Assembly (NCBI RefSeq): GCF_003144195.1
Contig: NW_020290135.1
Span: forward strand, 1-32,787
DNA from: Ceraceosorus guamensis
Taxonomy: Eukaryota; Basidiomycota; Exobasidiomycetes; Ceraceosorales; Ceraceosoraceae
Direction of reading: 5' to 3'
DNA: 32,787 bases
Shown: in pieces, positions 2,591-31,521 of the stretch
Numbering within the stretch: the stretch's first letter is position 1
Layout: every line of letters begins with the position of its first letter
Program-made: the position numbers and the translations under genes
Notes under the pieces: model-generated
What the model saw: the letters and a program-made list of their open reading frames with translations, nothing else
Database searches by the model: none
Told to the model about the DNA's origin: nothing

Positions 2591-3865
2591 ATGCGGCTCA
2601 GCGAGAGCAGCTGGTCATCGAGCGCGAGCGGGCTGCTCGTAGCGCTCAGTAGTCCCAGCTTGCTCATCTTGTGGACCTATCTGGCTACGTGCGCAGCGCT
2701 GCTGGGGTGGGTGTACAGCAAGGCTTCGTCTGCGTCTGGCGTGTCCAGCAAGCGTTCACCGCTGTGGAAGGCGGGTAGCCTGCTCTCGCTGGCTTCCACG
2801 TGGTACTTGTGAGTGCTCACGCGCCGCTATAGAGGCTTCCAACGAGCGCATACACGCGATTGTTGAACACAGCTCGAATTTCACCTTAGCATGCTCGCAT
2901 TTCTACGCTATTCATACGTAGACTATGTGAATAGCAGCCGCACGCTCGAGGCATCCACCTTGCGACGCCTCAAGGATTGGCTGGACAATACGCGTCTGTT
3001 CGAACAAGCTTGGCTAAGGGTGGTGCAAGGTCCCCGCGAATGGTGGTTCTCCTCCGAAATTTGCGTCATCACGACAGGTGCTTGGACATTGTGGATAAGA
3101 GCGAGGCGTGAGTGTGCGCTCCTCTTCTTCTCGCTGCTTGCTCGAACTGCGAAAGCTAAAGACTGCGCATCCTGGGTGTCCGCATGTATGCGCGTAGAGC
3201 GCCAAGGCAAGCTCAGGTATGCTGCCGCGTACATGATTCTGGGTCAGATCGTAGCCATCAGCGTCGCTGCTGCCCTTTCCTTCCTCGCCGTAGCCGAGGA
3301 TACTACAGACGCAAGTACAAGCCCATCAGACGACTCTAGCTCTTCCAGCGCACCTGGAAAGGGGAGACGCCCTCAAGACAAGAGGCAGACCAGCGCAGCA
3401 AGCGGGGTGCTGCTTTTGGAATTGGTCTTCTTTGCGGCTGGGGCATGGGCAGTGTCTTCGCCTCCTCGAGACTTGCTGCAGATCCTCACCATGCACGTCT
3501 TTCCTCTTTTTCTCGTCCTTTTACCTCCAAGCGACGCACCTCACTTTACGTTTCTCGCCATGGGTCTGAGCATCTACGCTGCCGCTTTGCGCATTCGAAA
3601 TACGTTGGCAGTGTTAACGACGCTTCAAGCACAAGAGACGTTCATCGAAGCGCTCTGGAACACTTTTTGGGCGCATCCTGCTCAAGGAAGCATCTCTTCG
3701 GACCATGTCGCCGTCTCTCTGCTCGTCAGCTCTCGCATACTCTTGGAGTGTTCGAGCTCGAGCACAATACGCGCAAATTGGTCAGGCATAGCGTTAGCTA
3801 GCCTCACGCCGCTACTTTGTCCAGCTTGTACACTCGCCGCATGGGTCGCCATTACTCATGGGTAG
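2591..3865 (+). CDS. Multi-pass membrane protein of unknown function
   Basis: Model: 2591-2808, 2890-3107, 3198-3865, giving 367 residues. Intron 1 (GTGAGT at 2809, TAG at 2888-2889) is required to join the frames, producing ...ASTWYF-MLAFLRYSY.... Intron 2 (GTGAGT at 3108, TAG at 3196-3197) is 90 nt, a multiple of three without a stop, so a retained form of 397 residues would also be open. I favour splicing because it removes a Cys-rich insert between two hydrophobic stretches. Hydrophobic segments begin near residues 16, 34, 62, 122 and 150 and recur through the C-terminal third, suggesting 7-9 membrane passes. A Ser/Asp/Lys-rich hydrophilic loop (about 185-215) splits the protein. The start ATG has G at -3. 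I do not recognise the family. It could be an ER or vacuolar membrane protein, which is inference from topology only. Confidence 0.7.
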
Positions 3866-6896: not shown

Positions 6897-7688
6897 CTAA
6901 GCAAAAGAGACGCTCTTTCGCTTTGGTAGCTGCGCTTTGGCAGAGCTTGGCAGTGCACTGTCCATCTCCGACTGCTCTGACGATCTCGTCGAGTCTGCGG
7001 CGTGGGTCGCGCGCTGGGCCAGCGCAGCGTTGGTCCTTCTGGCCGCCTTTCTAGCTCTGGCTTTCGCCCTCTGTTCCTCGATCAGGTTGCGCTTAGTCGC
7101 TGTCTTGGACAAGATGATGGCCTTTGGTGGCGATGCAAGCGGCGCATCTTTGTGATGCCCCACGCACTCATCTGCACTGCCCTTCTTGCCAGTCGGAGCA
7201 GGTACGCTCTGCCCACCTAGACTGCCAGCATCACGACCATCGCTGCTGCTCTTCCTCCTCCTCCTCTTCTCCTTTTTGAAAGCTGCGCTCTCCTTGTTCT
7301 TCCTCAACCTCGCTTCCTCCTTTGCCTCTGACAACTTTGCAATGTCCAAGCCCAACTGGGCCAAGTGAGAAGCTCCCATGCTCTCCGGAAAGCTCTTTGT
7401 GCGCTTCTTGCCCTGCTCGAGCATTGGCGATGCGTCCTTCTCTTTGCTCGGATCTTCGGCACGACCTACGGGCTTCGTAAGGTCCTGCTCGTGCACCGAG
7501 CCTGTTCCATGACGAACCTCCTTGCCTGCTCCTGCGCCCGCGCCTCTTGCCCCACCTGGTCGAGGTGCATTCAATCTGTTGCGCTTCTCTGCCTGCTGTG
7601 CCCGCTTCACATTCTCAGACTTTGCGCTGCTGCTGGAGCTCTTCTTGCGCTTGTGACCCGGCAAGGGACCTTTGGGCAGACCGACCAT
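6897..7688 (-). CDS. Lys/Arg-rich hypothetical protein, probably nuclear or nucleolar
   Basis: A single open frame of 263 residues with no intron needed. It begins MVGLPKGPLPGHKRKKSSSS and ends PKRKSVSFA. It is strongly basic, with bipartite basic clusters near residues 13-16, around 135-150 (KKEKRRRRK) and 215-225 (RAKARARKAARR), separated by Ser/Gly/Ala-rich low-complexity stretches. A helix-forming segment (LAQLGLDIAKLSEAKEEARLRKNKE) lies near the middle. This composition is common in ribosome-biogenesis and chromatin-associated proteins, and the basic runs would act as nuclear localisation signals. I recognise no named domain. The start ATG has GG before it (G at -3) and G at +4. It lies divergent from nothing: its upstream neighbour, the SIR2-like gene, is transcribed in the same direction. 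Confidence 0.6.
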   Translation of the reverse strand: MVGLPKGPLPGHKRKKSSSSSAKSENVKRAQQAEKRNRLNAPRPGGARGAGAGAGKEVRHGTGSVHEQDLTKPVGRAEDPSKEKDASPMLEQGKKRTKSFPESMGASHLAQLGLDIAKLSEAKEEARLRKNKESAAFKKEKRRRRKSSSDGRDAGSLGGQSVPAPTGKKGSADECVGHHKDAPLASPPKAIILSKTATKRNLIEEQRAKARARKAARRTNAALAQRATHAADSTRSSEQSEMDSALPSSAKAQLPKRKSVSFA

Positions 7689-8663: not shown

Positions 8664-11600
8664 CTAAATTTGATCAGCAGGTTCCCAAAGCTTGATCGTG
8701 AGCTCGGGATCCTCGTAATTGCGGGGAAGCGGTTTCGATGGCGAGAACACGAAGTGGCTAGCAGTGTCGACGAATATCTTTTTGAGATCGGGAGGGGGCT
8801 CGCTGTCCCCAGAACTACCACCACGGTAGACATCCGCTTTCGCTTTGCCATGGGCGACGTCGCGCTCGGGCTCAATGCTGCTCGACTCGCCCTGAGGGAT
8901 GCCCGTGATCCCCAAGCCGCCGCGAGGATGCTGCTCTTGCGAGATGTTGTTCTCGATTGGGGCAGGCTCCCTGTTTCTGGTCTGCGTCGGGCTTGCGGCT
9001 GGGGATGAGGAAGCGGTGTCTGGGAACGAGTGCGGAGGAAGCCTTGCAGATCCAGGCTGTTTCAAATCGGGGGTCTGCTCTACAGACGAGGACGTGGGCG
9101 GCTGCGCTACCGAGCTTGGCGGAGAGCTGTTCGACGATTTCGATGTAGACGTTGTTGATCCCGAGAAGATGATCTTCAGTAAGTCTTGGACCTTCACGGC
9201 CTCGCCCTCCTTCTTGTATTTTTTGTGGTGCGCTCGAGCTTGCAGCACATCGGTGTGGGTAAGAGCGGCAACCTGCGACCAAGGAGGGGTATCGCTGAAT
9301 TTCTCACGGTAGTCCCGTTCCAAGGCTCGACGGCCCAATTCGAGCGATGCCTCCTCCCAGGGATTGGTGGTGAGTATGGTCTTGTTCTTGGAGAAGGGGA
9401 GGTTGCACACGTACGGCGCGCTTGCTAACAGCGCGATCACCTCGCGATATCGCCAGGGATGCTGCAGATATCTGCTCTTCGCTCGAGCCAGAGGGTCATC
9501 GTGAGTGTTGGTGCTGACGCCGATGAGTGACATGACCAAGAAAATGATCAACATGATCAATGTCATGATCTTCGAGGTGTGAAAGGTGCCGCATGGCTCA
9601 TTCTGTCGGCGTGACTGGGGAAAATTTCCCAGACCAAAATCGCGGAAGGGGGCACTGCGCCTCCAATATCCTTCCCGACGATAGAACGCTCTGAAGTATT
9701 CGCGATATATGGAAAGGGCTTCTTTGACGTGGTTGCAGGCCTCTATGTCGAGTTGATGAAGGCTTTTGAAACAATTGAGTACCTGTTCTTCGTTCTCTTC
9801 CGCGACAAGCCATTTAGTTGCTTTCAGATACTGCTTGCTGAGCTCTGTTGAATCATAGGTATCGCGCTTCGGAACCTCGAGCTCCTCCGAATCATGATAG
9901 CCGCGCTTCAGGCTCGGAGACGGCGTCGGTTCGTAGAGATCAGTGAGGTCCTTCATCTTCCTAGAATCTATGTTTTCGCTGAGGAAAGTACGCGTGTCCA
10001 ACATTTCCTTCCGGCGGTCTTTCGCAGACGATCCGTTGGGTAGAATCAATGTGCATTGGCCGAGCAGCTTGATTCGGTCGCTCTCTTCGAGAGGACCGAG
10101 AATTTCGTGGACAAAGCAGCGTGAGTTGAGTGCAAAGTTGTCGGGGAGGGCGACCTTCTCTCCAAGAAGCAGAGCAAGATTGATTATGCCGCGTAGATAT
10201 TTGGCTTGTGGGATGTCGCGCATGGATCGGGCTGGCGAAATGTTGTCGAAGACCAGAGGCGCGAGCTCAGGGGCTTGATAAACCTCGTCCAACTGTAATT
10301 GCTGTCTGAAAAGCGGTATGACGGTGCCCTGATCTTCGGTCTGCTCGAATTGTGTTTGGAGTTCACGCACGGCTTGCAAACCCCATGTGTTTCCCGCACG
10401 CTCCGCGGCGCGTCTTGCAGACTCCATGTACTGGCGGTAGCGCAGCCTTGCAGGATCGTTAGAATCGCCTTGCTTGGCCAGAGAGTTCGAAAGTATCGCC
10501 GACAAGGCGCCGGGGACCCATATATCCGGCCATAGGTCTGGCGCAGCCCCAAGCTCCTCAGCGATTTCCTGTAATGCATTGATCAGCTCTGTGACCTGAG
10601 CTTCCGCGTGTTTAAAATCTTTGCTGCTCAATCTTCGAACGATGTCGTCTAAGCGGAGGGCTGAGCGTCTTTGAACGGTATCCGTTTGGTATGTCTGAGC
10701 AAGTTGAAGATTGATCGCTAATGCTGTCCAAGCAGCCTCATCTGGGCCAGCGCCGTATGTGGAGACGAGTTTCTTGAGGCACGGAGTGAGGAGGCAATGG
10801 ATACTTTCGAGGCGCTTGCTGCACATCTCGAGCTTCTCGACTCGTTGCACGTCCCGCCGATCCGACGCTTCGAGAAGACGATCTTTTTCAATTCGCATCG
10901 CAGTGTACAGATCCCACAGGACACCCAAGCCCAGGACTGGGCGTGGGCAGACCTTGTCGAGCTTGCGATTAAGATCGTTGGTGAAAGATGACTCGCTCTC
11001 GCTAGTGCAGCCCTCGTATGGAATTTGAAAGGATTCGACCCGTGAATCTTGCGGCAGCGGTGTTGGGCCATTTTCGCCAAAGGCAAGCGGTGGATCCTGA
11101 GTTCTTTGATTGTCGTTTTCGTTCACTTGGCAGTCCTCCACAGCTTTGACTACGGGGCCGAAAAGAGCATCAAGGCAGTCGCGTCGAGTGCCCACTAAAA
11201 GCTGCAGCCTAGGTGCATTGCGAACCATGAGTAGATAGTCTGCATTCTCCTTCAGGTCTAAGCCGCTCCAGCCCGTGGTGATGACGATTGAGCTTTGGTA
11301 GATCATTTCAAGGACCATAGCGAGAGGGAAAGGTAGTTCCTGATGACGCTGAAAATTGCTGTCGATGCAACTCGAAGGATTGCGTGCGGTGCCGTGGATA
11401 TTGAAGAGGAACCTTGAGGAAGGCTTCGACAGGATGTCGGGGAACCAATGCGCGATCGTGCGAAACGCTTCGAAGGATTGACAGAGGAAGACAACGCAAA
11501 GTCTGTTGCCTAGTCGCAATGCACGCTCCTCGGCCTTATCCACACGGGCCTTGTCTACCAGTTCGTTTCCAGTCATCTCGCAGAGGAGCACTTTCTGGTG

Positions 11601-12159
11601 TTTGGATGCCTCGCGAAGGGCCTCGTCGAAGCAAGTGTCAAAGTTCGTGGTAAGTACGCCCTTCACCGAGTCCGAACCGGACGATATCAAGCGATCAATC
11701 AATTCCTGCAACAGGCGTAGAAGTGATAACCAGCTTTGAGCACGAACTATCTCCCACTTCTTGAGTTCAAGCAAGCACACTCACTTGATGGAGTGAATTT
11801 GGCTTTGATACATCGAATGCTGACATGATACCGAGGTATTTCTTGCCAAGACGTCGGACGAATAGGTCGGTAATGCGGTAGTCTTCGAAATTGGCTCCAA
11901 GCTTCTGCAGAATGTCGCGAACCTCGATGAATTTGTCCTTGAGTTCCTCGCACGAGTTGTGACCGTCATCGATAGGGTGACCGTCATCGATAGGGCAAAG
12001 AGCTATGTGACAAAGCCGATGTATGATTGCAGTGACGAAGGCCGTCCACATCAGCAGTCCGGAGCAAGCGGACATGCCACTCCCGACGAGGATGACCTGT
12101 TCACGCTCAGAGTCCCTCCAGGTCTGGAAGGTTTTGGGATCGAATCGCGGTGAAGCCAT
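8664..12159 (-). CDS. SIR2-like domain protein with helical region and transmembrane segment, 1138 aa
   Basis: Two exons, 12159-11785 and 11705-8664, joined in phase 0 by a 79-nt intron (GTGAGT ... TTGCAG). Start chosen: GCGAAAATGG, a strong context; an in-frame ATG lies 19 codons upstream. Residues 22-275 carry Sir2 fold motifs in order: VILVGSGMSACSG (22-34, the GxGxSxxSG NAD loop), TTNFD (144-148), HG (229-230, position of the catalytic His) and TTGWSGLD (268-275). I see no paired CxxC zinc-finger motifs after HG, unlike deacetylating sirtuins, and the layout resembles SIR2-like (SIR2_2-type) NADase domains. A long charged helical region follows (about 300-800). Next comes a transmembrane segment at about 838-857 (IMTLIMLIIFLVMSLIGV) and a Ser/Pro-rich tail. 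It is probably a membrane-bound NAD-binding or NAD-cleaving protein. Biochemical activity is inference; the motif order is what I see. Confidence 0.8.
11960..11995. repeat. 18-bp tandem duplication inside the SIR2-like coding region
   Basis: Unit TGACCGTCATCGATAGGG occurs twice head to tail (11960-11977, 11978-11995), perfect copies. On the coding strand it produces two PIDDGH hexapeptides in a row near residue 55-66, between the NAD-loop helix and the rest of the SIR2 domain. It keeps the frame, so copy number can vary without breaking the protein. Confidence 0.95.
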
Positions 12160-14644
12160 TTTCGCTTTGGTTCTAGACGGTGTGCACGCGGCATGTGGTC
12201 GGGAAGGGCCTTTCAAAGGCTTGCGCCGAGTTGGAGAGGGGCGTCGAGAAGAGCGTAGCCGGCGCGCAGTGGGATAGAATGCCGAGCGAGAAAGATGTAG
12301 TGAGGATCAGCGCGTGAGACGCAGAAGCGGGAGGGAGGAGTGCGCAAGGGAAGGGGTTGTGCGAGGGAGGTCTGAACCAGGGAAGGCGTTGCGAGCCTGG
12401 TGCCCATGCGGGCCCTGGTGACAAGATGATCTCCAAGTCCATTTTCGAAGGCCACTATTTATAAGCCTGGAGTGACTCAGCGGTACCGATACGACCATGG
12501 CAGCATCTTGCGTTAGACAGATTGTTGAGGAAGGCCAATCAGCATTGCGATCTCCTTCAGGTCGCGTACGATGCCGAAGGACCCCGAAATGCTGACTTGG
12601 CGGGAAGTTGACCAGATTGCTCCATCTTGGGTGCGTCTGAACTTCTGTGGTTCAGCGAGTGTTCCAGACCTGCTCTGTGAGCGATGAGAACTTGCGGTAC
12701 GTGTGGGGGGCGAGGATTGCTCGAAACGAAAAGGAGGGTGCTACATGCACTCCTAGAATTGCGCAGAGAAGCTGGAGGAAGGACCCTGCCGTCTTCTCGT
12801 GACGTAATCAAACGAGGGAGCAAGAGAGGGTCGCATCGTATTGTGACCCTCAGTGCGCATCGATGTGACTGATGATGGGACGCAAACATGGTCGTGCAGC
12901 GAGGCCCCTCAAAACAGTAACCCGCCCTAGCGCACCCGCGCACCCGGCAGCGCGCTAGCAGTCACAAGTCTAAATTCGTGATTCACCTCTCATGCGAGCA
13001 GCCCCTATTCGTCTCTGAATCCCACTTCTCACCAAAGACTCCGACCTCACAGCTGTTTCCGCGGCTTCAAAACTCTTGCCAGCCGTGCACTCAAATTTGG
13101 ATGAAGACCCTGCATCAAGACTACCTACATAGACCGCGCAAGCTCGAACGCAATCAAGAATGAGTGGAAGCCGATTTTGATCGACTGACGGCGACGGCGC
13201 GTGCGGCGTCAGGAACAGCCTCATCACCATGTACCGTTTGACTCACGATTAGAACACTTCTGTAGAACAGCATGATGTCGAGATGGGCAGCAGCCGGACG
13301 GCGATTGGGAATGAGGACCTGCATGCGCTGTAAAGCGGAGAATCGCCACACGCACGGACTTCATGCAAATGCAAGCGCACTGTCCGTGCGAGTCGTGGGT
13401 CCAGTGATGGATTGGCGCACAAATGTGTGTTCATGCACTCGTGCCTCGTGACTAGTCCTTGGTTGCATATGCAATCTTGAAGGACGCAGGATGCACGCGA
13501 CCATCCCTTTTGCAGGATGCTCGGTGGGCAGACACGATGAGGGGTGAAGCACAGGCGAGGGCAGCAGCCAGCAGCCCCTGCTTTGACCTCACTTCGTGGT
13601 CAGCCGATCAAGGGTCCAGATGACCCAGGGCGCCACTGCTGGCTGCAGGGGAGCCAAGCCGGACGGAGCGTCCAATCAGATTTCTGTGAATGGAAGTTGA
13701 GTCGAGTCACACAAGAATCACAAATGCAAGCAAAAGTTTGCACCGAGCCTCACACCCAAAGACTTCGTTCGATCCAGTCAGTCGTCACAGACAAAGTCTA
13801 GAGTCTGATCGAGTTACATATAGAGCAGTCAAGTGGAGGCGCAAGTTTCAGATCGTTGGTCCGCCAGATCTTCAAATTACCCAAGACTAATTTGTTCGAG
13901 ATTCATCAGATTCACGAATTCGAGATTGTGCGGCAATCATCGCGGCAATCGTGGGAGCAGCGCGCGGGGTCGCGTGAGAATCTCGATCCAAGTCTTGAAT
14001 TAAGGTGCACGGGCCGCGGGGTCATGCGGTCCAACTCAAAGACTCATCAAACCAGCAAAGTCAAGAGTTTGAGTGCCGCTTGGGAGTTGAAGAGTCACGT
14101 GGCATTTCGAATTCCGGTCCTCCTTGATCGTATATGTACATAAGTCTTGAGTCTTGAGTGTCTCGACTCTTAATTAAAAATGACGATTGGTGGTTTATAT
14201 TTCTGAATGTGGTTTTTGATTTTGGAACATCTTGATAAGAAAATGTTGCGGTTGTCAATTCAAAATGGAGTCAAGAGTTGTGACAAAGAAACCGCGACCC
14301 AGATCGCCACGATGTGGAGCATACATCTGCGCAGCTTGAAGTCAGAGACGGAGTGCCCTGATCACTCGCTTCAGCGTCAAAGTGACTGCCTCCATTCACA
14401 TTCGCGATTCTTGATTGCAGACCATAAGCCGGACTATGATACTGCTGCCCCATTACGACCCACACGCATACATCAGAGCTAGAATTGCAAACGCACCCTG
14501 ACCCAGCCAAGACCCGCAACTAGCTGCGCCAGTCTCCGACTACTTCGAATACCTTCTCGGTCGCAGGCACTTTGACAGTCCAGAGCTCAACACTCAGACT
14601 CTTGCGCAGCATATTCAAAGCAGCAAAGCATCCATTTGGTCAGG
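12160..14644. other. 2.5-kb region without a recognisable gene
   Basis: This divergent region separates the SIR2-like gene (leftward) from carboxypeptidase S (rightward). A consensus TATA box for the left gene is at 12456-12463. From about 13,700 to 14,450 the sequence is less GC-rich and full of short GAGTC, GATTC and CTTGA words, for example CTTGAGTCTTGAGTG near 14150 and GATTCTTGATT near 14407. Open frames are below 130 codons, mostly overlap one another, and show no domain. I see no gene, tRNA or element with ends. Confidence 0.5.
12456..12463 (-). promoter_or_regulatory. TATA box (TATAAATA) for the SIR2-like gene
   Basis: The minus strand reads TATAAATA at 12463-12456, about 297 bases before the chosen start codon. 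That would give a 5' leader of roughly 260 bases. The match to consensus is exact; the assignment is by position only. Confidence 0.4.
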
Positions 14645-17015
14645 ATGACCGGAGGCAAGGAAAAGTCCCTTGTCGGCGAACGCAAAGCCGATGACAAGCA
14701 TAGGGGCAGCATCCTCACATCGCCGACATTCAATAAGCAGCCTGCACGCGCATACAAGCTGCTTGCTGCACTCTTCACCCTCCCCTTGTTAGCCCTGTCC
14801 TTTGTCTACATCGACGCAGCTCTCTCCGAGCCACACATCAACTCACGCTTCACTTCGCTGCTCGATGACTTGTCGGTTGCCGCCTACAAGAGCTTGGATC
14901 TGGAGCGCGAATGTCCTCAAGTCCCAATCAACGCAAGCGCTCTTCACTTCAACCTCGACGCCAAGGGTTCGCGTGCCCGTGCACGCGCGGAAGAGGATGA
15001 GGCGCGATACGCTACCCTGCTTAGCGAATCGGTCAAGATCGACACCTCCATTGGCGACAATTGGCCCTCTCCAACGGAAAATCCCTCACTCTGGGAGGAC
15101 AGGTTTGGACCATTCAAAAAGTGGATGGAGCAAGCTTTCCCGCTGGCTCATCAGGATGATCGCATACACAGAGATGTTGTCAATCAACATGGTCTGGTGT
15201 ACACTTGGAAAGGGAGCGATGAGAACTTGAAGCCTGTGCTGATCACTGCTCATCAGGGTGAGTCGCACTCGCGCATATATGCACTCGAATCGCTACTCTT
15301 AAAGCACATACCCACCCCCTTGTCGAGCAGACACTGTGCCGGTCTTGGAGGCGACGCTGGACCAGTGGAAATATCCACCGCATTCGGGCCACGTGGATGA
15401 ACAAGGCGTTGTTTGGGGAAGAGGATCGTACGATGCCAAGGCTTGGCTAGTAGGCATCATGTCTGCGCTGGAACGTTTGCTTAGTGAAGAGAGCACGTTC
15501 GTGCCGAAGCGAGGCATCGTCGTTGCCTTTGGTTTTGATGTGAGTGCTGGGTGATGAGCAAATCCGGCAGCCGCAGTGCTGACAAGCACGCCTCGTCATC
15601 ACTTGCGGCGCGCAGGAAGAAGCATCTGGACCTCAAGGTGGAAGGCATATTGGTGCGCATCTGGAAAAGGTGTGGGGCAAGGACAGCTTCGCGTTCCTCT
15701 TGGACGAAGGCACACCCAACCTTTCGTCATCGTCGGGCTACGGTGTACCCGTCGCGCTAGTAGGTACGGAGGAGAAAGGAGCGATGCACATTACGCTCCG
15801 TGTAGAGTCTGCCGGTGGACACTCTTCCATCTCCCCAAGGCACACCAGCATAGGTATGCTCAGCGCCATCTTGGCCGAGCTCGAAAGGTATCCGGAGCAG
15901 GTTAGACTTGGAAAAAAGGTTGGGGATGATTCCGCGCACTTGAACACGCTCATGTGTCTGGTCGACTCGCCCGTCATGGACCCTGCTCTCAAACGCGCAC
16001 TCAGAAACCTTGCCTGGGCGAAGCGGTCTGTCCGCGCAAATGACTGGGTTGCAACAAGTGACGACGGCCACACAAGTCGCAAAGGACTCACCGTATCAAC
16101 CATGTTGGACTCGCTGCGTCACGATCCGCACGGTCTTCGAAGGGTAGCCAGGGCAGAAGATGCAGTCAAGGCTGTTCTGCCTCGAAATTTGGCTAATCCT
16201 TTCTTTACGACGCACGCGATCGATGTGATTCAGGGAGGTGTGAAGATCAATGCTTTGCCGCCCGTCGCTAGCGCATCTGTGGACCATCGAATCGCTCCTT
16301 GGTCCAGCGTCAAATACTTGCAACAAGAATGGACAGACCTGCTGAAGCGATTTGCAGAAAAGTTCAACTTGGAGTTGACAGCGTGGGGAGAGAAGGTCGA
16401 TGCAAAGTCGTACTGGATGGGCCACATCTGCGAAAATTCTTCAAAGCAGTCTTCTATACGTTGGCAAGACCAATGCGAGGGATATGTGACGTACGACGGG
16501 ACCGGTGGCAAGCTCGTCATCGAAGCTTGGGAGAGTCCGCTGGAACCGGCTCCTGTTACACCGACGCAGGGAAAAGATGCAAAAGCATGGAGATTACTCT
16601 CTAGCGTGATTCGCCAGACTTATCCCACTGACCACACGGGTCAGGAAGTCCGCGTTGTGAGTCTGCGCATCCGGGTGTTGAGATGGCATGAGCCGCACGC
16701 GTGTTCCGCTTGACCTCCTCGCAAGGAGGGCGTAACGTTCTGTCCGACCTCTTCATCCTGACGTCTTGCTGCACATCCTTCTTGCTCTCTTCTCAGGCCC
16801 CCGCCATGATGCAAGGCAACACCGACACGCGTCATTATTGGGCCCTCACTCGCAATATTTTCCGCTACGGCCCTTCATCCTTCGAAAAGGATCCGAGCGG
16901 ATTGGGTACGGTCAAGGGCGTGCATGCCGAGAACGAGCACTACGCGACAAAACGAAGTCGACTGAGCAAGTTTTATCAGGAGATCATTTTGAGAGCTGAT
17001 GCGGAGGAGTTTTGA
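14645..17015 (+). CDS. CPS1: Carboxypeptidase S, vacuolar M20 metallopeptidase (Cps1-like)
   Basis: Four exons: 14645-15257, 15331-15539, 15616-16656, 16797-17015; 693 residues, all junctions in frame. It removes C-terminal residues from small peptides in the vacuole and uses two zinc ions. M20 motifs are complete: AHQD (202-205), GRGSYDAK (234-241), catalytic and metal-binding EE of FDEEASG (275-276), DEG (304-306) and the C-terminal His in NTDTRHYW (629-636). Residues about 37-56 (YKLLAALFTLPLLALSFVYI) form a single hydrophobic segment after a basic N-terminus, matching the type II signal anchor that takes yeast Cps1 to the vacuole. Introns 1-3 are 73, 76 and 140 nt with GTGAGT donors; intron 1 splits the metal-ligand Asp codon. 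The protein is longer than yeast Cps1, mainly in the N-terminal part. Its 3' end faces the PITP gene. Confidence 0.93.
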
Positions 17016-17601: not shown

Positions 17602-19547
17602 TCAGGCGATCTTGGTGCGAGATAACGTCTGAGCGACATCCCCCGCAGCTTCGGACGAGGAGGAGGAGGATTGAGATGCGATTGTGGTAGCAGCTGTCGA
17701 GGCTTGGGAATCTTGGCCGTACTCTGAAGCAGAAGCAGACGCAGACGTGCTCGTGGGCGCTGTGGCGTTGTCACCATCCTTTTCCTGAACACCGCTCGAC
17801 GGCGCACTCTCCGTCTGGCGATTCAAGAACCTTGAGATGGTTTGTCCCTCTTCAGTGCCATTCGATCGCGGGGGCTCTAGAGCTCCTGATTGGTCCTCCG
17901 AAGCAGGGGCGAGGGATGCGGCTGAGCTCACGACGTCGGGGGTGGGCGCGTCATTCGAGGAGAGAGCGGGTCCAGTGCATTGCTCAGTTGGCGCTCTTCT
18001 GGCTCCCGCTCTCCTGGTACCATCCGGCATGACCTTTGCCGCATTCATCAGAGGAGTCCAGTACTGCATAGCCAAGGGAAGGGTGAGGTAGAATCAGTCC
18101 ACTCGCAGTACAACGGGCGTCGGTCTTGTTCAAGAGGACGCAGAATCGCTCGTGCCTCTCCTCCGTGCTAATCGTCAATGGACAACGCCCCGACACTCAC
18201 CTTTTCAAAGTCCCACACGTATCGGTGTCTGCCGCCAAACTCCGCATCAAGCAGGTCCAGATCCACAAACTCTTCCAACTTTGCGTTGAACCTGATCTTG
18301 GCTCTAGTAGCGGGATCCAAAAAGGGCGAAATGGCGCTAAAGAAGGCGTTCTGCGGCGCAAAGCACGAGCGACATTGGTGAGTGACTATCAGTGGCCGCG
18401 TCGACCGAGCCGCTCTGCTGCGTTCCCTCTGCCAAGACACTCACCAGGTACCACGGCACGTTGCAGACGAACGCTCGGCCCATCCTCTCGACATAGTGAG
18501 CCTGCAAAATGTTGAGCACTTTGAGAGCTGAAAGGGCGGGTCAAGAGCATGCAAGATGGCGCACTTCAGCAACGCAAAGCGCATACAGGTAGAATGGAGA
18601 CCTAGGAGAGAGATGCTGGGTTGCTCACCTTGCGACAGCGAGGGATTGGAAGCTTGAGTTGCGGACTTGTAATCGATGATGATCGTCAGCGTCTCTACGC
18701 CCTCCGGAGCGATGTCTGCACAGTCCAACACAGGTGAAAGTAGGCCATGCACGCCTCAGTCAGCGAGTGATTGGAAGTCCAGACTCTTTGCACGCTGCAC
18801 GCTGCACACTGCAACCCACCCAAAGATCTTTCCAGCGCGTACACCAGGAATCTGATTTGTCGAGGAGAAGGTGTCGTATTCTCTCTTGACGCATGCGGAG
18901 CGCAAGGATGGCAAGTCGTGAGCATGTATGCGCCTTTATTGTCTGTCTGTCACACGCCTGGCTCACCTTCCAGGTCTGAGGTAGAGCACCGGTCTGCCGT
19001 CCTTGTCAAACCCGCTGAGCACTTGTTTGCCAGTTTTGGCCTCCTCCACCACCTCGTCCGGGCTGATCAGCTCAGGCCTGTAGCTGCGTCTCCAGTACAA
19101 TGTCTCGCTGATCCTCTTCTTGGCGTTTTCCAGGTCCCACTTGGAAGCGCGGGCGTAGCGAGGCAATGTGGTGGCATCTTTTAGAAACGTTTCTTCCCAC
19201 GTCCTGTACCACGCTGGAGCGGGCGAGGTCGAAGTTGACGCTGCTGATGCCGATTCTTTCGCCTTGTGAGCAGGTTCGATGGAGCTGCCTGCAGTCTCGG
19301 TGACCGTCCTGCTCTTGCTCAGCTCCGCATCATCTTCCCAACCCCTGCCGTGCAGCTCCCACACGTATGCGCCGAGAGCAGCAAGGAGATCCTGCTGAGC
19401 GGCCGAAAGAGGGGCGCTGGGAGGTCGAGACTGCAGTGATGCCAAGGTGGATGGAAGAGGCGCGAGGATGGGGTCGTGAGAGACTGGCAGGGAGGATTTG
19501 TCGACAGAGGTTGAGGGAGCGGGAGCTCGACGCAGGAATCGAGACAT
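17602..19547 (-). CDS. Sec14-like phosphatidylinositol transfer protein, Pdr16/Sfh3 type (CRAL-TRIO domain)
   Basis: Six exons: 19547-18967, 18884-18820, 18715-18629, 18527-18445, 18350-18201, 18063-17602; 475 residues with matching phases throughout. The N-terminal CRAL-TRIO helical part is about 105-165. The lipid-binding lobe (about 170-325) reads DGRPVLYLRPGRENT, RQIRFLVYALERSLD, VETLTIIIDYKS, VLNILQAHYVERMGRAF, CNVPWYL and SPFLDPATRAKIRF, closely parallel to yeast Pdr16/Pdr17. Such proteins move or present phosphatidylinositol and sterols, affect azole tolerance and act at the ER, plasma membrane and lipid droplets. After about residue 335 a Ser/Ala/Thr-rich unstructured tail is added, absent from yeast homologues. 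Intron 2 has a GTGGGT donor, the rest GTGAGT/C. I chose MSRFLRR (ATCATGT context); an in-frame ATG 52 codons upstream would add a Pro/Ser-rich leader that reads through an 8-bp repeat. Confidence 0.9.
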
Positions 19548-19560
19548 GATGGCGAGGGCT

Positions 19561-19588
19561 GGAGGGCTGGAGGGCTGGAGGGCTGGAG
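19561..19588. repeat. GGAGGGCT 8-bp tandem repeat
   Basis: Three perfect head-to-tail copies (19561-19584) plus a partial copy lie immediately upstream of the PITP start codon, so in its 5' leader. Read in the PITP frame they would encode a Pro/Ser/Leu-rich stretch if the upstream ATG were used. Confidence 0.9.
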
Positions 19589-19772
19589 AGAGGGGCGACT
19601 GGGCCGTGTCAAAGTGCAAATTCTGCTGCGGTTGGATGAAACGGGCGTAGAGGCAAGGAATGTGGTCTGACAGTTGAGACGTTGGATGTGAGGGAGAAGG
19701 CAATCACAATCAAGAATCAAGAATCTTGAGTCCGATCATGCACGGCTTGACGCTCGTTGTCTAGCTGATGGG

Positions 19773-20378: not shown

Positions 20379-23042
20379 ATGTTCCCTCGCCGCATCAGCA
20401 CCGTCTGCGCATCGTCTTTTCTCTCTCTCCAACGCCCGGCGCTCAATCTGACCATGGCGCCTACGCCCGTCGCGTTGAGCACAAGCGCAGCTGCCGCACT
20501 GGGCATCTCGTCGGACCAATCGGCTTTCAAGGAAGGCTCAGCGGTCATCTCCATACCCAAATCGGACGCCGCTTTCCTGAATCCTGTACAGGAATTTAAC
20601 AGGGACCTCTCCGTGCTTGCGATTCGTACCTGGGCCGAGCGGAGGGACAGGGAGAAGAGGGAAAAGTTCGAACAGGCGATCAGCAAGAGAAAAGAAAGAA
20701 GCGCGAATGGCAGGGGCAAGAGGAGAAAAATCGCGCACACGGCGACGTCTAATGGTGAGTGACGTGCCGTCGTGTGAGATGGGCGTGATGAGCGCGACCA
20801 GCTTACGCGAAAGCTACGCTCTGCTTGCAGCGTCAGACGCAGCCTCGCTTGACAACGCCTCCAGCACATCTGCCAAAAGGGCAGACTTGTCGGCCAGCGC
20901 TTCTTCAACAGCAGCAGCAACAGCAGCGGGCGACGTCTCTACTGCCAGCACCAGCTCGCACGCACACATCGATTCCTCCCACCGACCCTTTACCTTCAAC
21001 ATCTTCGAAGCTCTCTCTGCAACAGGCTTGAGGTCCATTCGGTATGCTCGAGAGATTCCGAACTTGAAGAGTGTGCACGCCAACGATCTCTCGCCCACTG
21101 CTGTGCAAGCCATTTGGAAGAATGTGGCTCTGAACTTCCCTGCTAATCGCGACATCAAGCAGTGGGCGCCCGAATTGGATCGAGGAGAGCCGGAGAAGGA
21201 TGATGCGGAAGCCAGCTCAACTGCCGAAGCTGCTGCCGCCGCGGCTCGCAGCGCTTCGTCTTCTGAGGCTGCGAGCGCGCAGTTTGCCAGCAATGGCGCA
21301 GCCAATGGGGCTGGCCATCCAGCTATTCATCCCAAATGCAAGATCCATGTGACAGAGCAAGATGCCATCGAGATCCTCTACACTTCACGAGCGAAGGACA
21401 AGCAGTACTCGGTGATTGATTTGGATCCGTACGGTAGCGCATCGATGTTCATAGACGGAGCAGTCCAAGCCGTGGCGGACGGAGGTCTGCTGTGCGTCAC
21501 TTGCACCGACCTGGTGGTGCTGGCGGGGAACGCGTATCCCGAACGAGCCTACTCCTTGTACGGCGGCACGACGACGCGGAACGACTTCGTGCACGAAGTT
21601 GCGCTGAGGTTGGTTTTGGGCTTGATTGCCACCACGGCAGGAAGGTACGGTCGAGCCATCACGCCCCTGCTCAGTCTTTCTATAGACTTTTATCTCCGAG
21701 TGTTTGTCAGCGTACACACCAGGCCTGTGGATGTCAAGATGCTGGCTAGCACCATGGGCACCGTGCAGACTTGTCCTGATTGCGGTAATTGGGACGCAAA
21801 TGCTTTCGGACGCAACAAGGCAGAGGGGAGAGCGGATCTGATCAAGTATCAGGCTGGCACTAGCCATACTGTGGGTACCAACTGTCAGGAATGCGATAGT
21901 CGATTTCATGTGAGTGCGAGCGATGATCAGGGAGGACGCAAAGTGCGAGGAAGGCGAAAGCGCCGTACGTCGAAGATGAGCTACACATGTACTATTCAGG
22001 AATCTCGTTAGGCTTACCCAATACACGTGGGGAGACAATCCATGAACCGCTACTCTGAGGCGAGCGCTTGGGGAGGAGCAAAAGGAATGCAGCGCCGGGC
22101 GATCGGTAGGAGGTGTCAAGTTCTTGGTGCACAGCTGACCCTTTGTCTTCTTTGTTGTGCGGACTTCCCGGCACTTTGCAGGTGGCGGGCCCCATGTGGC
22201 TCGGACCGCTACATACGCCCAGCTTCGCCGAGGAGATGCTTGAGGTTCTGGAGCGAGCGCCCGTGCGCTTCCGTACAGCTCCGCGTATCCGTGGTATGGT
22301 GGGAATGGCAAGCAAGGAGCTTTCCTCTCCATTCTTCTTCATCCCACCGAAGATCTCCAGCTACTTCCATACGACCAACATTCCCCTCACCGCTGTCGTC
22401 TCGTGTCTCTTGAACGCGGGATACGAAGTCTCTAGAAGTCATGCGCAGCCGGCTAGCATCAAGACGAATGCTAGTCCGACTGTGGTGCGAGATCTCTGGA
22501 GACAGTGGGTCAAGGAGAAGTCGCCGATCAATGAAAAGAATGTGCACGAGAATAGTCCGGCGAGGAGATTGCTCGCGAAGGAGTGCGCTACGACATTCGA
22601 GCTTGACAAGGATCATCCGCAGACGAGGCAGGTCCTCGGACTGGACCAGGACGGCAAGAAAAACGCAGGCGTCAAGTATCAAGTGAGTGTGCTCTAGTGG
22701 CAAGACCTTCAGCTCACGGAGCGTGCTCCCCTACGGTCTGGCATCAGTATCGGAAAGGCTGACGGTTCTGTCGATGGCTCCTCCTGCTTGCCGCAGCTAA
22801 ACCCTCTGCCAAACTGGGGCCCCGGAAAAGCAGCCAGACCAGAATCTAAAAAAGATCGCAAACGAGCAGCCGCAGCGGCTGCGGCTGCGGCAGCATCGAG
22901 CGAGTCGAATGGAACGGGCGGGGGTCGGGCGAATGTCAGCGGTTTGGCTGCCAGTGCTGGAGTTGACGCGTCAGCCCAAGGCGATGTGCAAGCCAACAAC
23001 CAAGCAGCGTCAATGGACGAAGATGAGCTTCGCAATTCGTAA
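20379..23042 (+). CDS. TRM1: tRNA (guanine-26-N2)-dimethyltransferase Trm1
   Basis: Four exons: 20379-20754, 20831-21909, 22182-22682, 22797-23042; 733 residues from the first ATG, 708 from the second (20454). Trm1 dimethylates G26 of tRNAs using S-adenosylmethionine. Motifs seen: ISIPKSDAAFLNPVQEFNRD near the start of the mature form, FEALSATGLRSIRYA (SAM-binding start), DLDPYGSAS (322-330), CTDLVVLAGN, and a zinc-type CPDC (440-443)...CQEC (477-480). The C-terminal domain includes KEKSPIN and LNPLPNWGPGKAARPES. The first 25 residues are Arg/Ser/Leu-rich without acids, like a mitochondrial presequence; the second ATG (ACCATGG) has an excellent context. Yeast TRM1 uses exactly such paired starts for mitochondrial and nuclear forms. 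Ala/Ser-rich inserts lie near residues 150-175 and 250-290. The tail has a poly-Ala run. Intron 2 is long for this region (272 nt). Confidence 0.95.
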
Positions 23043-25853: not shown

Positions 25854-26178
25854 TGGCTTCCAGACCCGAGGATTTTTGGATTTTTTTCAAATCAAGAATC
25901 AGAATCATTCATGATGAGACTCTTGATCTCCTGATGGCTCGGGCAGACAGGTGCGTGCGGTGCGTGCGACTACATGCGGGAGCAAATCGCACGTCTTCCT
26001 AGCTGATGGCGAACAAGCAGATTCGCAATTTAGCACCTGAATGCGTCGATCTTGAACGTTCACTCCAACATTCTTGATTCAATCGCATCAAGAGACCTGC
26101 TCGACCGCTCGAGCGCATCTTGACGCTGATCGTGCTATCCGGCTGGTCCAGCTTGGAGCGCATACATTCACTCGCAAG

Positions 26179-29071
26179 ATGCTGGTGCGAGGCACAACAC
26201 AGCGGGGCTTTGGCCTCATGGGCGCCGTACACGCACGATGTCTCTCCACCGCAGCGGCGCCAGCACGGACTGCTAGCAGCTCCAGATGCTCGCCAAGCTC
26301 CATCTCAACCAGCGCGCGCCGCCTTGGTGCTTCCAGTGCTGGTCTTCGGATCGCTCGTCAGCCTGGTGGCGTGCTTGCAGGATGCACAGCAGGCATGGCA
26401 TCGGTGGCGACCTCTTCCACCGTCGTCTCGGCCATAGACCCTTCCATTGTACTGACGGGAGCCGAAGCACAAGCCATGTCTCGTCGACGGAACATCGGAA
26501 TCGCAGCGCACATCGATAGCGGCAAGACTACAGTGACGGAGCGAGTGCTCTTCTACACTGGACGCATCAATGCGATTCACGAGGTCAGGGGCAGGGACAA
26601 TGTAGGGGCAAAGATGGATCACATGGAACTCGAGAGGGAGAAGGGCATCACCATTCAGAGCGCTGCTACGTATTGCAAGTGGATGGCCACTCCACCCACT
26701 CAAAGAGATGCCGTATCGGGCGATGTGGGTAGCGGAGAGACTTCTGGAAAGGAAGAATTCCACTTTAACATCATCGACACGCCAGGTCACGTGGATTTCA
26801 CCATCGAGGTGGAGAGAGCTCTGCGAGTGCTCGATGGTGCAGTGCTGGTGCTGTGCGCTACTTCTGGCGTGCAAAGCCAGACCATCACAGTGGACAGGCA
26901 GATGAAGCGGTACAATGTTCCCCGCATTAGCTTCATCAACAAGATGGATAGGCAAGGGGCAAATCCATGGAGAGTCATCGATCAGATCAGGTCCAAACTG
27001 AAATTCCCCTGTGCCGCTGTCCAGCTGCCTATTGGTAGCGACGACAACTTTGAGGGCCTCGTCGACCTTATCCGATGGAAGACTGTGCACAACGACGGAG
27101 AAAAGGGGTGAGTGAGGATTCAGTGGACAGGTCAAGCTTGCTCCCAGGCGCTGACGCATCACACTCCGGGGGCTGCGCCTCTCTCAGCATCACTATACGC
27201 GAGGTCGACGGCGTACCTGATAACATGAAGGAGCTTGCAGAGGAAAAGAGGCGAGAGCTGATAGAGCAGCTGGCAGATGTGGACGACGGCATGGCAGAAA
27301 TCTTCTTGGAAGAACGCGAACCTAGCATCGATGAATTGGCCACTGCAATTCGTCGTTCCACATTAGCCTGCAAGTTCTCGCCAGTCTTTATGGGTACTGC
27401 CATGAAGAACAAGGGAGTGCAAGCCATGCTCGACGGCGTTTGCGCGTATTTGCCCAATCCTGCAGAGGTGCCCGCTACCGCGATGGACACGAGCAGCACA
27501 GCCGCCAAGGCGGCCCAAGAGGAAGCGGTCCAGCAAGCTCTGGAGGATGGTGCCGATGACGAGCAGCAACAAGTGGCGCGCAAGTCGGCCTCGTTGCCCG
27601 TCGTTGGTTTGGCACCAAAGTCGGATGCACCTCTGGTTGGCCTGGCTTTCAAGCTAGAGGAAGGTCGTTTTGGGCAGCTGACATATCTGCGAGTGTATCA
27701 AGGTACGCTCAAGCGCGGTAACCAGATCTACAATGCTAGAACCGGCAAGCGAGTCAAAGTGCCTCGATTGGTGAGGATGCACAGCAACGACATGGAGGAT
27801 GTGGACAGCATTGGTGCTGGGGAAATTTGCGCCATGTTTGGAGTGGACTGCAGTTCTGGCGACACCTTTACCGATGGAACGACGCAGCTCAGTATGACGA
27901 GCATGTACGTGCCGGAGCCCGTCATCAGCCTTTCCATCATTCCAGAAGGCAAAGACGCGAGCGCCGCCAATTTCAGCAGAGCACTCAACAGGTTCCAAAA
28001 GGAAGACCCGACGTTCAGAGTACATATTGACAACGAGAGCGGTGAGACCATCATTAGCGGAATGGGGGAATTGCACCTGGAGATCTACGTCGAGAGAATG
28101 AGAAGAGAATACAACGTACCTTGCAAGACGGGCAAACCTCGAGTCGCGTTCAGAGAGACGATTGCTCAGAGAGCTGCTTTCGCGTACACGCACAAGAAAC
28201 AGACTGGTGGAGCTGGACAATTTGCTCGTGTGGCCGGGTGAGTACAACGCGCGCCTGCGTAGCGTGAAGCACTCGCACTGACGCGCGCGCCTCTCCTGCT
28301 TCCAGCTTCATCGAGCCGATGACTCTCGACGAGGAAACGGGCAAGGACGTCGCCTTTGAGAACCGCATCGTTGGCAACGCCATTCCAAACGGCTACTTTC
28401 CTGCTTGCGAGAAGGTGAGTGGAGGCCATCTGGAGCGTGCGACGTCTTTACCCACCCAACGCAAGAGCTGACGCCACGCGCTCTCTGCTCCGCAGGGCTT
28501 CTACGAAGCGTTGGAGAAGGGCTCGCTATCGGGGCACTCCGTCACTGGTGTTCGATACGTAATGGAAGACGGATTGGCGCACTCTGTCGATTCCTCTGAA
28601 CTGGCCTTCCGCCTCGCCACCATTGGCGCCTTTCGATCCGCTTTCCACAACGCCATGCCTACGATCTTGGAGCCAAAGATGACGGTGGAGATCACTGCTC
28701 CTACGGAGTTCCAAGGGGCTGTCATTGGTGCCCTCAATCAGAGGAGGGGCGTGGTGGAAGATAGCGAGGTCAGAGAAGATGAGTTCTCCATCACGGCTGA
28801 AGTCAGCTTGAACGACATGTTTGGCTATTCCAGCCAGCTTCGGGGCTTGACACAAGGCAAAGGAGAGGTGCGTATAGGTCATGTGATTTCTCACAGCGCT
28901 AGGTAGGGACTCTGTGCATCGCCTTGCTCACGCTGACGCGCCCTTTGTTCCCTTTCTCCCTCAAAGTTCTCGATGGAGCTCAAGAATTACCAACCGGTCT
29001 TGCCTAATGTCCAAAGAGATATGGAAGCAGAGTACAAAAAGCAGCTGGCTGCTGGCAGCGGTAAAAAGTGA
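26179..29071 (+). CDS. MEF1: Mitochondrial elongation factor G 1 (mEF-G1)
   Basis: Five exons: 26179-27107, 27188-28237, 28306-28414, 28496-28867, 28967-29071; 854 residues, all junctions in frame. It is the translocation GTPase of mitochondrial protein synthesis. The first ~60 residues are Arg/Ser/Ala-rich without acids, a mitochondrial presequence. G-domain motifs: AHIDSGKTT (110-118), [11 protein letters not shown] (152-162), DTPGHVDF (200-207) and NKMD (254-257). Later segments include [19 protein letters not shown] (domain II), [16 protein letters not shown] (domain III), [14 protein letters not shown] and NMFGY-like [12 protein letters not shown] near the C-terminus, ending AAGSGKK. Two hydrophilic inserts stand out: about 172-193 before DTPG, and about 50 residues rich in Ala/Gln/Glu before domain II. 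The last intron uses GTGCGT. The ATG has A at -3. The tail [16 protein letters not shown] is typical of mEF-G1, not mEF-G2. Confidence 0.96.
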
Positions 29072-29829
29072 AGCGATCATCTACATTCTAGAGTTGAAGA
29101 AATTCATTCGCGCTCTTTGCAATCTTGTCGCCATGCATCGCAACTATCATCACCCTTCCAAAATGACTCAGTATCCGACGAGCGGCGGCAAGTCTGGTTC
29201 GCGCGGGGTGAGATGAAACGCCGTGAACCTGTCAGGCACACAGCCTCGGCTGGAAGCCTGTCACACATGTGCTTCTCCGAGCTCGGAATCACGCTGACAC
29301 GTCTAGATCTGGCTAGCACCTCGGTAAATGTCGTATTAATTCCGCGCGTCTCACGCCCGCGTTGCAAGGAGACGTCCCACGCGTCTCAAGGGAATCGCAT
29401 GACGGGGAAGTTGAATTGCTTTCTACAGGGCATGCTCAGGCAATCTGCAGCCGGCCGAGCGCCGTGCCGCACGATGATGGGCTCGATTGAGTAAGGAGAG
29501 GAGGAGTCAGGTTCGTGGATTGGCAGGAGAGCGGGCACCGGGTGAGCAGCTCTCGAGCATCGAGCGCAGTCAAGATCCTCTGCTCGTTGCTCGCGATGCG
29601 AAGAGTGCCCTCGGCAGCCACGCGAGGGCGATGGTCAACAGCGCATGTATCGCAAAGGCAGCAAGGCAGAGCGATGGCGAAGCAGAGCTCCCGTTCGATC
29701 AGGGCAAGATCAGACCTGCGCAGCTATAAGAGAGGTTGATCCACTTGCAAACTTGCGCTCCTGACGGAGGACGAATATCAGCGACATCCTTGCAGCAGCG
29801 TGCACGCTAATCACTTCTTTTCCGCAGAC
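29072..29829. other. Intergenic region and GH28 promoter
   Basis: About 760 bases between mEF-G1 and the GH28 gene, both on the plus strand. It contains the mEF-G1 3' end and a TATA box at 29725-29730. Open frames are shorter than 130 codons and show no domain; I see no gene. Confidence 0.55.
29725..29730 (+). promoter_or_regulatory. TATA box (TATAAG) for the GH28 gene
   Basis: TATAAGAG lies 105 bases before the start codon of the GH28 gene, in the position expected for a TATA box with a 60-75 base leader. Plant-cell-wall enzymes are usually regulated genes, which fits a TATA promoter. Confidence 0.45.
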
Positions 29830-31521
29830 ATGCATCTCTTTCCCTGTTTGCTCACCCTTTCCTTGCAGTTGCTGGCGCTTCAAGCAGGCACTGCGATTGG
29901 TCTAGAGGCGCGCACCCCTCACGTATTGCGGAGGGCGTACACGAAACACACGTCGAGGTCCGTGCAAGACACTCGCGATGCTCTCAAGACGACTCATCAG
30001 GAGCGAGCAGCTCCAGAAGTAGGCGACCCCTCAAGCAGCCAAAGCACTACCATTTGCGACATTGTAGATCAGGGTGGAGCGACCTCTTCAACGCTCGACG
30101 TGGGCCCCATCATCGAACAAGTCTTCAAGTCGTGCGTCAAGCGCAGCTCAGGAGCTGTGCTTCGTGTACCGGCTGGGGACTGGCCGATCGCCTCTCATGT
30201 CATCCTGAATCCCTGCGAAGACTTCACCTTTCAAATGGAGGGCAATCTACACCTCACAGTCGCGAACGTGGGCGGCGGTCCCATCTTCGACTTTCGATAC
30301 TCGAACAATTTCAGAGTCACGGGAGGTGGAACATTCTTTGGCAATGGCCGTGCTTTTAGGGACAAGTACGCCTTGAAAGACAGACCGAGGTTGATGCTCT
30401 TCGAGGGTACCAACTACGAAGTTGACCACATCAGGCTCGATGATGCGCCGGTAAGTCATTTAGCCACGCCAAGGCTCTTGCTTGAGACGAGACATTCTGA
30501 CATTCTCGTCAGATCAGATGTACCATCTCACCGCCCGAGGATCTCACTTCAAAGTCCACGATATAGTGATCAGCAGCAAACCTCCATACGTCGGTACGAC
30601 GGACGGCATAGATTTGGTTTGCGAAGAACAATGTTCAGTCTACAGCGTGAGGAGCTTCCAGAAATCAGTTGACATGTGCTTCGCCGTCCTCGTTTGACAT
30701 TCCAAGGCGTCTTTCCGCCAGGCGAACGTGACGAGTGGCGACGAGTGCCTTTCAATCAAGAAAGCCCACGGGGTCGAGGTGCAGGTAAGATGGGGTGCTC
30801 TTCTGTTGCGGTGGACTCGGGCTGATTGCGTCGGTGCACACGCCCCCTGCAGGATCTCGAGTGCCACAGTGAGTGGCGAAACATCGCACACGCCTTCAAA
30901 CCATTCTCACGGCTCCGCTCGCTTCACACAGATGGGGGTGCAGTATCGATTGGCAGTGCTGGGCCGGATGGCACGTTTGAAGTCGAAGACGTGCGCGTCA
31001 AAGGCGTGTCGATGCATAACTCTCAAGCTGGCGTCTACATCAAGGCGTATCCGAGATCTCGTGAGCTTGATAATCTTCCTCTGCCTTGCGCTTCGCAGAC
31101 GTATTAAAAACCATCATTTCCTTCCCCAGGCGGCTACATCCGTGGTTGCCTTTTCCAAGACTTTACCATCGACGATGTAGCGCATCCCATCGAGATCAAT
31201 CAAGCTTGGTGCGGTCATGGCGAGTGCTCCCTCTCGGAACCTGGAGGACTTGACATCTCCGACATTACGTTTGATGGCTTCAAAGGAAGCGGGGATGACA
31301 CTACCCGGCCTCCCGTCATATTGCGTTGCCACTCGGGAGGGTGTCACGATATCAATTTCAAGGTGGGTCAGGCTGAACAAGACCCGGAACAAAAATGAGC
31401 CGTCAGCCTTACCATTCTTTCTGCACAGAACATCGACTTGGCTAAAAAGGGCGGACGTTCCCCCAAGCCGCAGATGCAGGGCGCATGTGGCGCTGGACTC
31501 GCCGCCCTGCCGGCTTGCTGA
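29830..31521 (+). CDS. Secreted GH28 glycoside hydrolase, rhamnogalacturonan-hydrolase-like
   Basis: Seven exons: 29830-30450, 30518-30646, 30722-30784, 30853-30868, 30932-31060, 31130-31362, 31429-31521; 427 residues. Exon 4 is a 16-nt microexon, and the full chain closes in frame. Residues 1-23 (MHLFPCLLTLSLQLLALQAG...) are a signal peptide. The body is a right-handed beta-helix type: VTGGGTFFGNG, DAPMYHLTARGSHFKVHDI, TTDGID (234-239), SGDECLSIK (255-263), NGGAVSIGSAG (277-287) and AGVYIKAYP. GH28 polygalacturonases have NTD, GDD, GHG and RIK at these places. The DEC motif, GGxxxGS and TRPPVILRC near the C-terminus fit rhamnogalacturonan hydrolases better. It should cut the rhamnogalacturonan part of plant pectin outside the cell. 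Catalytic acids D236, D257 and E258 are present. The substrate is inferred. It is the last gene before the telomere. Confidence 0.88.

Follow-up and report, generated by a model that had tools for sequence, protein, structure and literature searches.

Bacteria use SIR2 enzymes that destroy nicotinamide adenine dinucleotide (NAD) against viruses, and immune-type SIR2 NADases, which are well studied in bacteria, have recently been described in vertebrates (FAM118). Does a fungus encode one as well? The question is raised by a gene on the minus strand (12159-8664) of a 32,787-nucleotide stretch of the Ceraceosorus guamensis genome (contig NW_020290135.1; the whole stretch is called the window here), for which an earlier note had proposed a membrane-linked SIR2-like protein nearer to an immune NADase than to a sirtuin. 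We consider it fairly probable that the product belongs, as a fungal representative, to the SIR2_2 (SIRim) branch of the sirtuin superfamily, that it would cleave NAD+ rather than act as a deacetylase, and that it would serve as an effector in stress or immunity under the control of its helical middle and its C-terminal region.

The gene consists of two exons that form an unbroken frame of 1138 residues. Exon 1 (11785..12159, minus strand) supplies residues 1-125 (125 codons), including the NAD-loop motif GSGMS and a conserved TDLFVRRLGxxYL...NSLH block, and exon 2 (8664..11705, minus strand) supplies residues 126-1138 and the stop (1013 codons). Between them lies a 79-nt intron (11706..11784, minus strand) with canonical ends (GTGAGT...TTGCAG); its length is not a multiple of 3, and reading through it gives an internal stop and a frame shift. 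The splice is required because the NAD loop in exon 1 must join the rest of the SIR2 domain in exon 2, and it is supported by homology that is continuous over the junction: the exon-1 block TDLFVRRLGKKYL...NSLHQ and the start of exon 2 align without interruption to four relatives (P0001, P0002, P0003 and P0004, described below). The residues that the earlier note had numbered N146 and H229 keep those numbers in the two-exon model, and a pseudogene was set aside, as the 1138-residue frame is intact. Exon 1 also holds an exact 18-nt tandem duplication (11959-11994, residues 56-67), whose translation PIDDGHPIDDGH falls in the loop that follows the NAD motif.

The putative catalytic domain, of SIR2_2 type, spans approximately residues 20-310 (11151..12102, minus strand), with N146, H229 and D275 as candidate catalytic residues. 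As the earlier note had observed, the four motifs follow one another in sirtuin order within about 280 residues (GSGMSACSG from residue 26, TTNFD from 144, HG from 229 and TTGWSGLD from 268, with GWSGLD at 270-275; another HG lies at residue 1077). A loose form of this four-motif pattern arose in none of 20,000 residue shuffles, and a chance order was set aside on this ground. Neither CxxC nor CxxxC occurs anywhere in the 1138 residues, so the zinc pairs that would follow HG are absent, again as claimed, and the roughly 858 residues after the SIR2 motifs agree with the 860 or so that had been estimated. PF13289 (SIR2_2) was matched with 24.9 bits when the exons were scanned separately (cut-off 24.5); membership is borderline by Pfam alone and is secure because homologues support it. 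A profile of the five-member clade formed by this protein and P0001-P0004 had 15 matches in PDB at E≤0.1; each was a KomC, DSR2, ThsA, SPARSA or SIR2-HerA sequence, and no zinc sirtuin was among them. N146, D148, H229, G230, G270 and D275 are invariant within the clade. The structure model of P0003 was good, SIR2_2 proteins made up 49 of the 50 matches listed in its fold search, and the solved structures nearest to the model were NADases of bacterial defence systems. Resting on sequence and on the model of a relative, these data support a zinc-less domain of SIR2_2 type that is closer to immune NADases than to sirtuins. A search of PDB with the fungal sequence by itself gave no meaningful match.

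Among the 7,992 candidates of a capped list that were scored, P0001 (E 8e-31) and P0002 (E 1e-26) were matched and no others, and a full-length search with a three-row profile returned the same two and nothing further. Residues 1-215 of P0002, used as a query against 1,150 candidates, added P0003, P0004 and the more distant P0005. P0003 is the closest named relative of the fungal protein (BLASTP E 9e-23 over the SIR2 part); NCBI names it as SIR2 family protein, partial, from Candidatus Sigynarchaeota archaeon (lineage Promethearchaeati, the Asgard archaea). It comes from a 13.4-kb contig of a metagenome-assembled genome, and contamination may explain the Asgard label. The PF13289 scores of P0002, P0003, P0004 and P0001 are 37.6, 44.1, 34.7 and 14.9 bits, respectively, and a profile built from P0002-P0004 alone matched the SIR2 part of the fungal protein with 120.9 bits over residues 73-285, leaving the NAD loop outside.

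A tree of 14 rows, rooted by midpoint only and computed with long-branch warnings for P0005 and the fungal protein, pairs the latter with P0001 (100/99) and nests this pair in the five-member clade with P0002-P0004 (100/99), with the bacterial proteins described below apart from it. Within the five-member clade, no end branch is longer than that of the fungal protein (1.74). In P0001, a 24-residue insert (residues 218-241, KSNAHH...GPG) splits the GYSG-LD motif into GYSG and LDM. Judged from the protein letters, it reads like an unspliced in-frame intron beginning GGTAAGTC, and for this reason the source of P0001 appears to be eukaryotic.

The fungal protein is homologous to P0001-P0004 not only in its SIR2 part but also in its C-terminal part, the C-terminal link being weaker for P0001. 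The conserved C-terminal region covers approximately residues 610-896 (9393..10253, minus strand), and Pfam recognises no family in the C-terminal part of the protein, in line with the earlier note, which could name no repeat family that matched the middle of the protein. The two best-conserved blocks are residues 610-673 (DIPxxxYLR...ALL...KVAL..NF.LNSR.F) and 863-896 (PWRY...SAPYxxNLP). BLASTP aligned the region to P0003 with E 7e-11, hhalign gave 96.9% (E 1.7e-10), and a profile of the region matched the fungal protein with 40.1 bits in two stretches. P0001 matched this profile weakly (E 0.29); in a direct comparison, its alignment with the fungal protein extended as far as the first block and resumed briefly around PWRY (E 3e-5). 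Between the SIR2 and C-terminal parts lies a helical, possibly TPR-like region (approximately residues 465-586; 10323..10688, minus strand), for which a profile of the middle part of P0002-P0004 gave the fungal protein no support (E 0.52). An alignment of the C-terminal region (the fungal protein, P0002, P0003 and P0004, with P0001 left out) found three weak matches in all among 1,182 bacterial genomes, a set with no positive-control genome: 3 of 395 genomes in the phylum of G004 (short, E 0.0025-0.009), none of 400 in that of G002 and none of 387 in that of G001.

Beyond the shared region the proteins part ways. The fungal protein has a Ser/Pro-rich tail (approximately residues 975-1138; 8667..9158, minus strand) that is predicted to be disordered (predicted local distance difference test (pLDDT) score below 50) and ends at the point where P0002 runs on into a C-terminal Nudix domain (residues 922-1085), which matches ADP-ribose pyrophosphatases (PDB 8wv3, E 6.5e-13). 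The partial sequence of P0003 ends at this point too, and Pfam finds no Nudix domain in the fungal protein or in P0004. Because P0003 is cut there and P0004 has no match, the Nudix domain is not a defining feature of the clade on present evidence. In P0002, one chain could possibly both make and remove ADP-ribose.

The fungal protein also differs from P0002 by a hydrophobic insert (residues 838-856; 9513..9569, minus strand), a possible transmembrane helix that lies within an insertion relative to P0003. Its mean Kyte-Doolittle value is 2.73 over 19 residues, the next best stretch of the protein reaching 1.61; the best 19-residue stretches of P0001-P0004 reach 1.44-1.85 and are located elsewhere. 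By a simple donor and branch-point rule, exon 2 has no in-frame candidate for an intron that would conceal this segment. The earlier note had seen a transmembrane helix and proposed an anchored protein: the hydrophobic segment stands, but it is found in this protein alone among the five, so that by sequence it is a trait of this protein and not of the family. The fungal host that the note had supposed fits a gene with an intron and neighbours such as a TRM tRNA methyltransferase, an EF-G and a GH28-like ORF. The kin of the gene are not only fungal, given the Asgard label of P0003 and the bacterial relatives.

These bacterial relatives came from a SIR2 profile scan of bacterial and archaeal genomes, in which 77 pattern stretches yielded nine loci (L002-L010), all bacterial, with SIR2 proteins of 431 (cut by a contig end) to 973 residues. 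L007 and L008 encode identical SIR2 proteins, and L008 was omitted from the tree and from the comparison; in the latter, the fungal protein and the eight others share G26, G28, S30, W38, TTNFD, HG, D240, Q244, GxSGxD and Y282; G26, G28, S30 and W38 are invariant. They have the SIR2 subtype of the fungal protein and TPR-like tails, with TPR_12 above its cut-off in L004 only; their best PADLOC stretches fall in the SIR2 part, and the C-terminal region of the fungal protein was not found in any of the nine. Most of this subgroup carry [VI]D[ST]xxQ[RK] after HG, which reads VDLVTQK in L007 and L008. No relatives emerged from plasmids (tblastn with the SIR2 domain, three records, best E 0.1, none a real match), from viral contigs (46 pattern stretches with one alignment, 29 with another) or from a viral fold library searched with the P0003 model (nothing at E≤0.001).

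How does the protein compare with known systems? Like the members of the SIR2_2 family (PF13289; SIRims, including ThsA, DSR2, KomC, Avs5 and the SIR2-APAZ protein of SPARSA), it has a NAD loop, TTN[FY]D, HG and GxSxxD in order, lacks a zinc module and carries a large further region, as these often do. Unlike them, it has a C-terminal region (610-896) that is common to P0001-P0004 alone among the sequences searched, and Pfam finds no SLOG, STAND, APAZ or NACHT family in it. ThsA of Thoeris places a SLOG-type signal sensor C-terminal to its SIR2 domain; no SLOG family was matched here at E≤10, and the best stretch for the PADLOC ThsA model was residues 138-164 (E 0.0084). The identity of a fungal NLR was set aside, as Pfam gave neither NACHT nor NB-ARC at E≤10. 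Human FAM118A and FAM118B differ as well: FAM118B is a short chain of 371 residues, the fungal protein has 1138 with further conserved regions, and the FAM118 clade is described as vertebrate-specific. In DSR2 and KomC, each protein's own sensing part keeps the enzyme off and switches it, and the passages available on ThsA and Avs5 describe the same for them.

We infer catalysis, autoinhibition, oligomerisation, a trigger and a role in defence, with NAD+ cleavage, sensing and cell death as the events concerned. The N-terminal domain would cleave NAD+ to nicotinamide and ADP-ribose through N146, H229 and possibly D275. At rest, the SIR2 domain would be kept inactive or unassembled; on activation, either the helical middle or the region conserved at the C-terminus would bind a trigger or oligomerise. 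The outcome would be a lowered NAD+ level or an ADP-ribose signal in a response to stress, infection or incompatibility. Judging by the Nudix fusion of P0002, the product of importance may be ADP-ribose, which would favour either depletion followed by clean-up or a signal that stays limited.

Several observations weigh against this reading. The spliced protein scores 21.9 bits with PF13289 (E 2e-4), below the cut-off that the exon-wise scan passed. Its own structure model, made from exon 2 alone and hence with the first strand and the NAD loop of exon 1 not joined for folding, is too poor to confirm the fold (pLDDT 56.9); the fold search with it returned nothing at E≤0.001, and the 50 rows shown were mostly 14-3-3 proteins, next to other helical proteins, with no SIR2 row. 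A Pfam scan of ten open reading frames (ORFs) in the window recognised no defence gene. Around eight of the bacterial loci, 40 flanking ORFs gave, as raw counts without an enrichment test, two phage integrases, a single RadC, a single ResIII and mostly ordinary genes in Pfam (25 of 53 families shown), and, in PADLOC (25 of 28 shown), a few single matches, one of them to a type IV restriction enzyme. Furthermore, the passages available on FAM118B show that a SIR2_2 protein can process NAD modestly, perhaps for signalling, instead of killing. The NAD loop is diverged, without the PxxLPxW of the relatives, and the P0002-P0004 profile reaches the protein only from residue 73 on; because of this divergence and its place outside the profile match, the enzyme could possibly be weak or dead.

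Of the alternatives, the one that fares best is that the protein cleaves NAD+ for an ADP-ribose messenger or for modification of a target, as a signal maker or ADP-ribosyltransferase, without depletion or killing. The modest activity described for FAM118 speaks for it, as does the P0002 Nudix domain, which suggests that the ADP-ribose level matters to the P0001-P0004 family. However, among solved structures, those closest to the P0003 model and by the clade profile are defence NADases of bacteria, and Pfam finds no macrodomain or other ADP-ribose partner in the ten window ORFs; we regard it as unlikely, though deserving of some weight. Less probable still is a catalytically degenerate scaffold or regulator with a SIR2 fold, whose working part would be the C-terminal region. 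The diverged NAD loop and the long end branch of the fungal protein would fit such a scaffold, but the six clade-invariant residues listed above are kept, as are G26, G28 and S30 with the eight bacterial relatives.

We think it very improbable that the gene is a recent bacterial transfer or an assembly contaminant rather than a resident fungal gene. The named relatives found are prokaryotic, and in the 23.8-Mb genome PF13289 is matched by one gene, this one, in single copy, exon 2 having no other match in the rest of the genome. However, the gene has an intron, it pairs with P0001, whose insert itself reads like an unspliced intron, and its G+C content at third codon positions (0.615) lies within the range of six nearby ORFs on the same contig (0.576-0.654) and therefore gives no sign of foreign origin. 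An old transfer of the SIR2 gene may be conceivable. Finally, that the protein is a diverged ordinary zinc-dependent sirtuin deacetylase is hardly credible: the Rossmann motif order is in common, and of the 32 PDB sequences that a profile with the bacterial rows added matches at E≤1e-3, 11 are zinc sirtuins, but only over 42-47 positions around TTN, there is no CxxC, the five-member profile reaches no zinc sirtuin, and PF02146 does not match the spliced protein at E≤10 while finding ordinary sirtuin exons elsewhere in the same genome (seven matches at about four places).

The neighbouring ORFs with Pfam matches have no visible connection to the SIR2 gene. They encode an M20 peptidase dimerisation domain (15670-16713), CRAL-TRIO (18963-19703, below cut-off), a TRM tRNA methyltransferase (20617-22697), EF-G (26074-28241) and GH28 (29800-30672, below cut-off). 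ORFs 2891-3865, 6897-7688 and 14636-15400 had no Pfam match at E≤0.01.

Eukaryotic SIR2_2 proteins have already been recognised (PMC12700824). In the titles, abstract openings and passages that our partial literature search covered, no paper on a fungal immune-type SIR2 NADase was found; term searches of the main texts gave no SIR2 or sirtuin in an Asgard defence survey (PMC11291487) and no SIR2, sirtuin or NADase in a survey of fungal NLR effectors (PMC9815663). The catalytic module is known, its C-terminal partner is new, and the Asgard-labelled relative is unexpected and needs a contamination check. More tentatively, and with considerable doubt on our part, these proteins might represent a class of NAD+-cleaving effectors, equipped with a C-terminal sensor domain of its own, that is common to Asgard archaea and fungi, whether by descent from the archaeal ancestor that gave rise to eukaryotes or by transfer between the two; its fuller form would make ADP-ribose with SIR2 and remove it with Nudix, and the fungal branch would have lost the Nudix domain and gained a possible membrane segment. 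If this is true, the SIR2-Nudix chain would be a built-in shut-off or signal limiter, and the fusion suggests a way for such an enzyme to limit its own product. A fungal member whose partner region is shared with an Asgard-labelled protein would allow a direct test of whether immunity by NAD+ depletion runs from archaea to fungi.
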